Translations under genes and position numbers: made by a program | Assembly: GCF_003788635.1 (NCBI RefSeq) | Contig: NZ_AYKH01000012.1 | Location: 62,001 to 126,000, forward strand | Length of the DNA: 64,000 bases | From: Salinisphaera orenii subsp. orenii MK-B5 | GTDB taxonomy: Bacteria; Pseudomonadota; Gammaproteobacteria; Nevskiales; Salinisphaeraceae | Direction of reading: 5' to 3' | In this document: positions 37,863 through 41,465 of the stretch, piece after piece | Layout of the letters: every line of letters starts with the position of its first letter | How positions within the stretch are numbered: position 1 is the first letter of the stretch | The notes under the pieces: model-generated | Told to the model about the DNA's origin: nothing | The model's database searches: none | The model's input: only the letters and a program-made list of their open reading frames with translations

Positions 37863-39135
37863 CAGCGAACAACGCCGTCGGCGCCGGCGCATGTTCGGCG
37901 CCGGCGTACGCACGCTCGGCCGCAGCATGCTGCATACGATGCCCGGCTACGATCGTGCCCGCAGCTGGCAGAAGACCGGCCAGGACTGGTACGACACGCT
38001 GGGCTCGCTCAAGGGCGCGGCGATGAAGCTCGGCCAGATCGCGTCGCAGTATCGCGACTTCCTGCCGGAACAGCTGGTCGATCAGCTCTCGCGCCTGCAG
38101 CGCAACGCCGAGCCTTGGGACTACGCGCGACTCACCCCGGTGCTGGATGCGACCTGGAGCGAAGCCCAGCGCGCCCGCCTGGTCGAGATCGACACCGAGG
38201 CCATCGCCGCGGCGTCGATCGGCCAGGTCCACCGCGGCCGGCTGGACGACGACCGCGACGTCGTCGTCAAGATTCGCTACCCCGGCGTGGCCGACGCGGT
38301 CGACGCCGACATCGACAACCTCGCCCGCCTGCTCAAGCTCTCGCGTTTTCTGCCCGTGCGCGGCAGCGACATCGACGCCGTGCTCGAGGAACTGCGGCTG
38401 CGCTTCATCGAGGAGACCGATTACCGCCACGAGCTCGCCAATCTTCAGACGCTTCGGGCGATGACGCTGCCGGGCTACGTGCTGCCCGAACCGGTATCCG
38501 AGCTGTGTACCGAGGCGGTGCTCGTGACAACGCACGTGGCGTCGCGTCCGATCGCCGAAGCGCCGCCGAGGCTGGGCGCGGCCGTGGTGTCGTCGATCTG
38601 CCGCCAGGTGTTCACCTTCGGCGCCCTGCACGCCGACCCGCACCCCGGCAATTTCGGCGTGACCGACGACGAACGCATCGCCCTGTTCGATTTCGGCTGC
38701 GTGAAATACTTCGACCGGGCGACCCGCGACGCGCTGCGCGATGTGGTCGCTGCCGCCCTGATCGCGGACTGGCACGGCGTGCACGACGCCCTGGAGCGTC
38801 TCGGCGTGGTCCCGGCGGACAGCTGGGCGGACCACGGCCGCACCTACGCCGAGATCTATCGACGGCATGCCGAGGCCACGCTCGAACCGCTGCGCGCCCA
38901 GCCCGACTATGTCTTCGACGACGACGGGTTGATCCAGTCGATCCACGCCGAGATCCGCGAGTCGCTGCGTCACTGGAAACGCTTCAACGCCGCACCGGAG
39001 CTGGTCTTTCTGATGCGCACCCTCAGCGGTCTGTACTGGATCCTGCGCAGCATGAAGGGCCAGGCCCCGCTGATCGCCGAGCTGGAGGCGATCGCGGCGG
39101 GCGCCTACGATCCGCCGGACGACGCCGACGCCTGA
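37849..39135 (+). CDS. UbiB/ABC1 (ADCK) family atypical kinase
   Basis: A 428-residue protein of the atypical kinase family tied to ubiquinone and isoprenoid-lipid metabolism. The family KxGQ motif is in LKGAAMKLGQIASQYRDFLP near residue 45. Later come the alanine-rich loop and nucleotide Lys (AAASIGQVHRGRLDDDRDVV, then VKIRYPG), the catalytic loop LHADPHPGNFGV near 263, and FDFGCVKYF as the DFG equivalent. The ATG at 37849 overlaps the preceding gene by 14 bases. It lacks the C-terminal membrane helices of E. coli UbiB, so it is closer to the ABC1/AarF short forms. Partnership with the SRPBCC-SDR fusion suggests handling of a hydrophobic isoprenoid ligand. Confidence 0.88.
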   Translation: MASDNSEQRRRRRRMFGAGVRTLGRSMLHTMPGYDRARSWQKTGQDWYDTLGSLKGAAMKLGQIASQYRDFLPEQLVDQLSRLQRNAEPWDYARLTPVLDATWSEAQRARLVEIDTEAIAAASIGQVHRGRLDDDRDVVVKIRYPGVADAVDADIDNLARLLKLSRFLPVRGSDIDAVLEELRLRFIEETDYRHELANLQTLRAMTLPGYVLPEPVSELCTEAVLVTTHVASRPIAEAPPRLGAAVVSSICRQVFTFGALHADPHPGNFGVTDDERIALFDFGCVKYFDRATRDALRDVVAAALIADWHGVHDALERLGVVPADSWADHGRTYAEIYRRHAEATLEPLRAQPDYVFDDDGLIQSIHAEIRESLRHWKRFNAAPELVFLMRTLSGLYWILRSMKGQAPLIAELEAIAAGAYDPPDDADA

Positions 39136-39156
39136 TCGGACCCGCCGGCGGATTGT

Positions 39157-39162
39157 TATACT
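39157..39162 (+). promoter_or_regulatory. Candidate -10 element (TATACT) for the YhhQ gene
   Basis: TATACT stands out 51 bp ahead of the riboswitch and 87 bp ahead of the start codon. No good -35 box is seen at 17 bp spacing. Confidence 0.4.
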
Positions 39163-39207
39163 TTCGCCGGTTCATGCTGTATCGCTCGGCGCGGCTCGCG
39201 CGGCGAT

Positions 39208-39237
39208 GCGGGTTCCCTCACCCCGCCAGAAAAAAGG
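39208..39237 (+). promoter_or_regulatory. preQ1-I type riboswitch covering the ribosome-binding site
   Basis: GCGGG (39208-39212) pairs with CCCGC (39222-39226) as P1. The loop is TTCCCTCAC, giving the class hallmarks GGTTC and ACCC. Then come an A-tract (39230-39235) and GG (39236-39237). The GG can pair with CC of the loop as the pseudoknot P2, and it is also the Shine-Dalgarno AAGG, six bases before the ATG. Ligand binding should hide the SD and stop translation of the transporter gene. The downstream gene, a queuosine-precursor transporter, supports the call. Confidence 0.75.
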
Positions 39238-39243
39238 CCCGTC

Positions 39244-39921
39244 ATGCTCGATCTGTCCACACGTCAGGCGCGGCGCGTTCTCGCCGTGGTGGCGGCGTTT
39301 CACGTTGCGGTGATCGCCTCCAGCAATTACCTCGTGCAGCTGCCGTTCACGCTGGCCGGTTTCCACACCACCTGGGGCGCGTTCACCTTCCCGTTCATAT
39401 TCCTCGCGACCGACCTCACCGTTCGCCTGTTCGGCGCCGGGCTCGCCCGCCGCATCATCTTCTGGGTGATGCTGCCCGCCCTGGCGGTGTCGTATCTGCT
39501 GTCGGTGCTGTTCGTGGACGCGCGTTTCGCGGGCTGGGCGGCGCTCACCGTATTCGACGTCCCCGTGGCCCGCATCGCCATCGCCAGCTTCGCCGCCTAT
39601 CTGTACGGGCAACTCCTGGATATCGTCGTATTCAGCCGTCTGCGCCGGCTCAAACGCTGGTGGGTCGCCCCGGCCGCCTCCACCGTGTTCGGCAACATGC
39701 TGGACACGCTGCTGTTCTTCTCGATCGCCTTCATGGGCAGCCGCAACCCCTTCATGGCCGAGCACTGGTTCGAGATCGCCTGCGTCGACTATGCGTTCAA
39801 GCTCGTCATCAGCCTGGGGTTGTTCGTGCCGTTGTACGGCGTTCTGCTGCGCGTGCTGGCCCGCCGCATCCTCGCCTGGACCGACGATCGCGGCCCGAGC
39901 GCTTTGGCACTACCGCGTTGA
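39244..39921 (+). CDS. yhhQ: YhhQ-family queuosine precursor (preQ0/preQ1) transporter
   Basis: A 225-residue inner-membrane protein with about six helices. Family marks include FTFPFIFLATDLTVRLFGAG near residue 48, AYLYGQLLDIVVFSRLRRL near 118 and STVFGNMLDTLLFFSIAF near 142 (the conserved G-x-x-x-D-T). YhhQ imports 7-deazaguanine precursors for tRNA queuosine modification. The start at 39244 sits six bases after the AAGG that belongs to the riboswitch. No other queuosine gene is in the window, so the organism may salvage preQ0 or preQ1 in addition to synthesis elsewhere. Confidence 0.92.
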   Translation: MLDLSTRQARRVLAVVAAFHVAVIASSNYLVQLPFTLAGFHTTWGAFTFPFIFLATDLTVRLFGAGLARRIIFWVMLPALAVSYLLSVLFVDARFAGWAALTVFDVPVARIAIASFAAYLYGQLLDIVVFSRLRRLKRWWVAPAASTVFGNMLDTLLFFSIAFMGSRNPFMAEHWFEIACVDYAFKLVISLGLFVPLYGVLLRVLARRILAWTDDRGPSALALPR

Positions 39922-40133: not shown

Positions 40134-41465
40134 ATGAATACAATCGATCGCGTCGGATTCGCTGGGTTCTTTCTGGCGTGCCTTTTCCTGGCGTTTATCG
40201 GCGGCACGCTGATCGTGCTGACGCAAGTATTCCCCTATCAGCACATCAACGACGCCTACAAGGCGGCCCACGCGCTGATCGCCCAGGGCGCGATCGATGA
40301 TCGCTACACGCAGACCGACCAGTGGCGCCTCGCCCGCACGACCGAGCGCGGCACGACCATCCACGATCCCGAACGCGCCTATAACGGCTACACGCTATAC
40401 ACCTCGGGCGGCGGCGCCTACGCCTCGCTGATCGACATGGACGGGCGCGAAGTGCATCGCTGGGCGCTACCGTTCAGCCAGGTCTGGGACACGAACCCGA
40501 GCGGCCGGGCGGCCCGGTCCGACGACCTGATCTACTGGCGCAAGGCCATCATGTACCCCGACGGCGATCTGCTGGCGATGTACATCGCCGCCGGCGACAC
40601 GCCCTGGGGCTACGGCCTCGTCAGGCTCGATGCCGATTCCAACGTGATCTGGCGCTACAAGGGCGCGACTCATCACGATATCGACATCGCGCCGGACGGC
40701 CGCGTGATCACCCTGACGCACGAGTTCAGCTACCGCGAATTCCCCGATTTCCCGACGCTGGCCCGACCGTGGCTGAACGATTTCCTGGTCGTCCTCGACG
40801 GCGACACCGGCGAGGAGCAGCGCAGGATCTCGCTGTTCGACGCCTTCTATGATTCCCGCTTTCAGCCGTTGCTGACCGCGATACCCAGCTTTGCGGTCGA
40901 GGATCCGCTGCACACCAACAGCGTGCAGTACATCGACCAAGGCCTGGCCGATCGCTTTGCGCCCGCGAACGGACGCGGCAATCAGGTGCTGCTGTCCTTC
41001 CGTCATCCCGGCGCGCCGGGTCTCGTGGATCTGGACAGCGGCCAGATGACCTGGGCGACACGCGGCGGGTGGCTGGGCCAGCACTTCGCTCGCGCCCTGC
41101 CGAACGGCAACTTCACGCTGTTCGACAACATCGGCAACTTCGAGCCGGGCAACACCACGCGCCTGCTCGAGATCGACCCGAGCACCGACGAGATCGTCTG
41201 GCGCTATCAGGGCACCCGCGATCAGCCCTTCGAAAGCCGGCTGCGCGGCGCGAGCACGACGCTGCCCAACGGCAATCACCTGGTCACCGAGTCCGACGGC
41301 GGTCGGCTGTTCGAGGTGACACCCGAGCGCGACATCGTCTGGGAGTTCGTCAATCCGGTCCGCGAGGGGGATCGGGATCAGTACATACCGGTGGTTTCAT
41401 CCGGCCAGCGCATCAAACCAGAGGCGCTTGATCCGGCCTTCCGTGCCCGACTCAACACTCCCTAG
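40134..41465 (+). CDS. Membrane-anchored arylsulfotransferase (ASST)-like beta-propeller
   Basis: A 443-residue protein with one N-terminal membrane helix (FAGFFLACLFLAFIGGTLIV, residues about 9-28) and a periplasmic propeller. Motifs shared with ASST enzymes, which move sulfate between phenols without PAPS: THHDIDIAPDGRVITL, PLHTNSVQYID, VLLSFRHPGAPGLVDLDSGQ, and GQHFARALPNGNFTLFDN. The His of the last motif lines up with the ASST sulfohistidine position. Repeated W-x-x-G blades (VIWRYKGA, EIVWRYQGT, IVWEFVNP) match the propeller. It leads a four-gene run including a PAPS-type sulfotransferase. Whether it transfers sulfate or only binds is inferred from the histidines. Confidence 0.8.
   Translation: MNTIDRVGFAGFFLACLFLAFIGGTLIVLTQVFPYQHINDAYKAAHALIAQGAIDDRYTQTDQWRLARTTERGTTIHDPERAYNGYTLYTSGGGAYASLIDMDGREVHRWALPFSQVWDTNPSGRAARSDDLIYWRKAIMYPDGDLLAMYIAAGDTPWGYGLVRLDADSNVIWRYKGATHHDIDIAPDGRVITLTHEFSYREFPDFPTLARPWLNDFLVVLDGDTGEEQRRISLFDAFYDSRFQPLLTAIPSFAVEDPLHTNSVQYIDQGLADRFAPANGRGNQVLLSFRHPGAPGLVDLDSGQMTWATRGGWLGQHFARALPNGNFTLFDNIGNFEPGNTTRLLEIDPSTDEIVWRYQGTRDQPFESRLRGASTTLPNGNHLVTESDGGRLFEVTPERDIVWEFVNPVREGDRDQYIPVVSSGQRIKPEALDPAFRARLNTP

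Follow-up and report, generated by a model that had tools for sequence, protein, structure and literature searches.

The closest described system to the element considered here is the class I type III preQ1 (prequeuosine 1) riboswitch upstream of yhhQ in E. coli, for which a co-crystal structure at 2.30 A is available (PMC10622847, drawn on here and below for the parts consulted). In that structure, U11-A28, C10-G29, and C9-G30 pair to form the P2 pseudoknot, A27 of the Shine-Dalgarno (SD) sequence touches preQ1, and C14 reads the Watson-Crick face of the ligand. The dissociation constant (KD) is 57.9 nM, with a strong preference for preQ1 over preQ0, and preQ1 acting through this element lowers a reporter 6.1-fold in cells (PMC10622847). 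Hallmarks of type III include three conserved G-C pairs in helix P1, a pyrimidine-rich loop with an anti-SD CCU, four to five conserved A residues preceding P2, and a terminal AAGG that doubles as the SD (PMC10622847); a UU after the 5' strand of P1 and an AC before its 3' strand are added in the consulted parts of a review (PMC11625349). The window analyzed here comprises 64,000 nucleotides (nt) of Salinisphaera orenii subsp. orenii MK-B5 (contig NZ_AYKH01000012.1, positions 62,001 to 126,000). From its letters alone, a preQ1-I riboswitch had been predicted at window positions 39208–39243, controlling a downstream yhhQ gene by hiding its ribosome binding site. The present analysis indicates that positions 39208–39237, in the 5' leader of yhhQ, are almost certainly a preQ1 riboswitch of class I type III that closes on preQ1.

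The Salinisphaera element and its assignment to type III

The element reads GCGGG-TTCCCTCAC-CCCGC-CAGAAAA-AAGG, followed by CCCGTC and the ATG at 39244 (Table 1). Salinisphaera is a gammaproteobacterial genus and the bacterium is salt-loving; the location upstream of yhhQ in a gammaproteobacterial host is a further type III trait. The three conserved G-C pairs of the type III P1 are present as GGG/CCC at 39210–39212/39222–39224, the TT following the 5' strand is at 39213–39214, and the AC preceding the 3' strand is at 39220–39221. Loop positions 6–12, TTCCCTC, are pyrimidine-rich and include the anti-SD CCU, and the A-tract runs into an AAGG tail serving as SD (AAAAAAGG), with the ATG 6 nt further on. 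With 39208 as position 1, the element matches the E. coli 30-mer at every position named in the consulted parts of PMC10622847: G4, G5, U6, U7, C8, C9, C10, U11, A13, C14, C15, A27, A28, G29, and G30.

The original prediction of a five-pair P1 starting at 39208, a six-A tract (39230–39235), and a GG (39236–39237) agrees with the window letters. Its end point does not hold for the aptamer proper, which is 30 nt long; the remainder of the predicted range is the spacer before the start codon. Similarly, the assignment to preQ1 class I stands, on the strength of conservation and the likeness to E. coli, while the subtype is type III and not the form described by Rfam family RF00522. Translational control by capture of the SD is supported as well, being in agreement with the conservation pattern and, by analogy, with the published E. 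coli element. The YhhQ-type preQ0/preQ1 transporter proposed downstream is confirmed by a score of 335.5 bits against NF008406 (curated cut-off 252), with further matches to TIGR00697 (181 bits) and PF02592 (118.9 bits).

Table 1. Parts of the riboswitch and related features. Positions are those of the window except where a locus is named.
Feature	Positions	Strand	Basis or remark
P1 helix, 5' strand GCGGG	39208..39212	+	pairs with 39222-39226, 5 base pairs; includes the G4/G5 equivalents
Loop TTCCCTCAC, pyrimidine-rich	39213..39221	+	letters match the E. coli structure indices (PMC10622847, parts consulted)
Loop positions U6, U7, C8, anti-SD C9 C10 U11, C12, A13, specificity base C14	C14 = 39221		
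P1 helix, 3' strand CCCGC	39222..39226	+	window letters
L3 linker, CAG and the first four A of the A-tract	39227..39233	+	window letters; A-tract conservation
SD, AAGG	39234..39237	+	placement before the ATG; roles as in PMC10622847 (parts consulted)
Spacer CCCGTC between SD and start codon, 6 nt	39238..39243	+	window letters
yhhQ, preQ0/preQ1 (queuosine precursor) transporter, 225 amino acids	39244..39921	+	profile matches
Hairpin-variant leaders	L056 1420-1503; L074 1421-1503; L165		

Conservation and distribution

The GGGTTCCCTNNCCCC core occurs once in the 3.67-Mb genome, at this locus, and its reversed form not at all. Within the genus, YhhQ scores above the family cut-off in seven of 14 genomes, and the full element is found in all seven of these and in none of the seven that lack YhhQ. 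Six of the seven orthologous loci are distinct, L002 having the same sequence as L001. Their 15-nt core shows 100% identity, while their upstream flanks are only about 30% identical in ungapped comparison; the corresponding downstream comparison was not frame-aligned and nothing was drawn from it.

Beyond the genus, the pattern GGGTTCCCT was found within 80 nt upstream of all of 88 yhhQ genes (seven from the genus, 80 from genome contigs, and that of E. coli MG1655), and a stricter pattern that adds the linker and A-tract matches 86 of these leaders. These genes are not independent: Vibrio predominates, L002 and L001 have the same sequence, L048 is the L006 contig, and the 80 contig loci are the best-scoring among at least 561 query relatives. 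Of 398 genomes drawn from the phylum, 48 have the pattern, all belonging to the same class as the window, and a reversed-pattern control gave no matches; yhhQ is directly downstream in all 29 newly fetched loci from this draw, as it is in L120, fetched earlier. A draw from the class gave matches in seven of 369 genomes, each with yhhQ next, and one match to the reversed control. No type III element ahead of any gene other than yhhQ was seen among the loci examined. Three pattern matches in viral contigs were considered as possible phage-borne copies and taken as chance, because none is followed by yhhQ or has five A residues before the GG, and visual inspection found two Watson-Crick pairs below the GGG in none of them.

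Covariation in P1

Pairing was compared in 120 elements, 68 of them distinct, parsed by a script that fixes GGGTTCCCT and the C run, since in a MAFFT alignment the variable linker and the additional L2 base of some elements are displaced. The count excludes loci L056 and L074, whose spacing is abnormal. The pair directly below the GGG is Watson-Crick in 67 of the 68 distinct elements (C-G in 15, T-A in 47, and A-T in five), against a mean of 36.9 and a maximum of 48 in 10,000 shuffled controls. For the second pair the count is 56, where shuffling gave a mean of 27.7 and a maximum of 39. The third and fourth pairs below are Watson-Crick in just 24 and 8 of 68 and are mostly unpaired, so P1 consists of five pairs in most elements and four in some. 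All 68 have at least five A residues before the GG, where the pattern itself demanded at least three, and in 65 the tail has the form A5GG. By our own measure, nine of the 68 natural elements are 29–30 nt long. The sequence of the window element, its conservation, the covariation of P1, and the tie to yhhQ are all direct observations.

Evidence against the assignment, and alternative explanations

Several results weigh against this assignment. The 42-nt stretch, folded as plain secondary structure, has a z score of -0.69, with 50 of 200 shuffles equally stable, and the fold program alone favors a non-pseudoknot structure of no special stability. The second pair below the GGG departs from Watson-Crick pairing in 12 of the 68 distinct elements, including one with a G-T pair. 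Half of the genus (7 of 14 genomes) lacks both yhhQ and the element, so whatever function they serve is dispensable. Finally, RF00522 has no match in the window at its gathering threshold (39 bits) or in the genome to which the window belongs, and no Rfam family has one near the element at E<=10. As the fold program used cannot represent pseudoknots, the case rests on conservation.

The Rfam result needs to be read with its positive control. The original prediction had named an RF00522 search as its check and a score below threshold as its refutation, and this search was indeed negative; it is not a valid refutation, however, because the crystallized E. coli type III element (L118 5110–5290) is likewise matched by no Rfam 15 family at E<=10. 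There was also no RF00522 match at 18 further loci with yhhQ. The RF00522 model does not detect type III. A 30-nt leader left blank by automatic Rfam annotation can be given a confident function and ligand, and genome annotations relying on RF00522 will probably miss other type III yhhQ leaders, for which a separate type III model would be the remedy.

Three other explanations were considered. The hairpin could be a translational operator bound by a protein or small RNA, read by something other than preQ1. The evidence at hand is sequence, and conservation of a hairpin covering an SD might reflect a protein site, but the named preQ1-contact positions are all as in the preQ1-binding E. coli element, to the extent these are given in the consulted parts of its description, and the product of the regulated gene itself carries preQ1 and its precursor; an operator of this kind is very improbable. 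Slightly more remote still is a preQ0 sensor, with a pocket tuned to the molecule YhhQ prefers to import. Preference for preQ1 over preQ0 is strong in the E. coli type III element, and the pocket bases named for it are identical in the window (PMC10622847, parts consulted). A chance hairpin beside an ordinary SD, with which the unremarkable plain fold and the silence of Rfam would fit, has a negligible probability and, judging from the comparative sequence data (one occurrence per genome, a fully identical core amid diverged upstream flanks, strict co-occurrence with yhhQ in the genus, and P1 covariation), may be regarded as already refuted.

Proposed mechanism and physiology

For the type III assignment, the ligand, fold, and direction of control in Salinisphaera are taken by analogy from the E. 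coli element; 1:1 binding of preQ1 and translational repression, both type III traits, are predicted for the window RNA. With preQ1 absent, the AAGG would be accessible as SD and YhhQ would be produced. Once cytosolic preQ1 is sufficient, it would be read by C14 (39221), U6 (39213), and the first A of the SD (A27, 39234), and an H-type pseudoknot would close through U11-A28, C10-G29, and C9-G30 pairs, burying the SD and reducing translation of the salvage transporter.

The genome containing the window encodes QueC, QueF, and Tgt, and therefore preQ1 is probably made and used in this bacterium. QueC and Tgt are found in all 14 genomes of the genus and QueF in 13 (the exception is 81% complete), unlike YhhQ and the riboswitch, which are present or absent together, seven genomes against seven. 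YhhQ would then be a salvage route, to be shut off by the switch at times of ample preQ1.

A hairpin variant in relatives

Three genomes from a single family (L056/L156, L074/L157, and L165) have a stem-loop of about 40 nt between a type III aptamer and the yhhQ SD. These include Osedax symbiont Rs2 and an Oceanospirillaceae bacterium; L165 came from a search of 116 genomes in the family of L074, of which 11 match the pattern. In each, the aptamer is complete and carries an AAAGG of its own; beyond the stem-loop comes AAAAAGG, with about 7 nt separating it from the start codon of yhhQ. None of the 200 shuffles folds as well as the L074 stem-loop (z score -3.40, weakening to -1.91 with the aptamer included in the fold); the L056 stem-loop is less clear (z score -1.85, 13 of 200 shuffles). 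A mini-ORF (open reading frame) in the variant was considered and rejected, since the L165 frame stops immediately after its ATG.

It is possible, if on balance somewhat doubtful, that direct connection of the type III aptamer to the SD has exceptions. The hairpin might be an L3 insertion that leaves the distal A5GG still able to complete the pseudoknot; alternatively, the proximal GGA could exchange partners, pairing either within the aptamer or with a UCC of the hairpin. An L3 insertion is favored by the distal tail, whose A5GG form is that of nearly all normal elements. In the L074 and L056 folds, the proximal GGA does pair with a UCC on the 3' side of the stem-loop, but the fourth pair, A-U in L074 and U/C in L056, does not support this pairing. 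A GGA swap, if true, would be an indirect switch, new relative to the type III papers as far as they were consulted; no published report of the variant was met in a narrow look at the literature that included the available parts of PMC11625349. The element in the window itself is of the ordinary, direct form.

Genes around the element

The upstream neighbor is an ABC1/UbiB-like kinase gene ending at 39135, leaving a gap of 108 nt before yhhQ in which the element lies. A promoter scan gave no sigma-70-like promoter. By eye, there is a -10-like TTATACT at 39156, flanked by an inverted repeat, CCGGCG...CGCCGG, at 39145–39170. The gene after yhhQ (40134–41465) encodes an arylsulfotransferase-like product (PF14269).

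Comparison with known systems

Within class I, the window element shares its ligand class and pseudoknot type with RF00522 PreQ1 (PMC10622847, PMC11625349, parts consulted), unlike which it and the E. coli type III element go unmatched by the RF00522 model. Core and position are the same as in the window in yhhQ leaders of Vibrio, Aeromonas, Ferrimonas, and Marinomonas, except that in many Vibrio elements a single additional base precedes the 3' strand of P1 and in some A13 is replaced by G. In the titles and abstract openings pairing Salinisphaera with riboswitches, nothing related to preQ1 was met. Since type III, its association with yhhQ, and SD capture have already been published, the window element is an additional member of a known group. 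It is like the E. coli element (L118) in its identical loop TTCCCTCAC, in all named contact positions, in its AAGG SD, and in its yhhQ target; it differs in that its outer P1 pairs are GC-rich and its linker is shorter, for a natural length of 30 nt against 36 nt in the E. coli wild type. This is the length of the engineered E. coli construct used for crystallization (PMC10622847, parts consulted), so the Salinisphaera RNA offers a convenient natural case for testing the effect of linker length on affinity.
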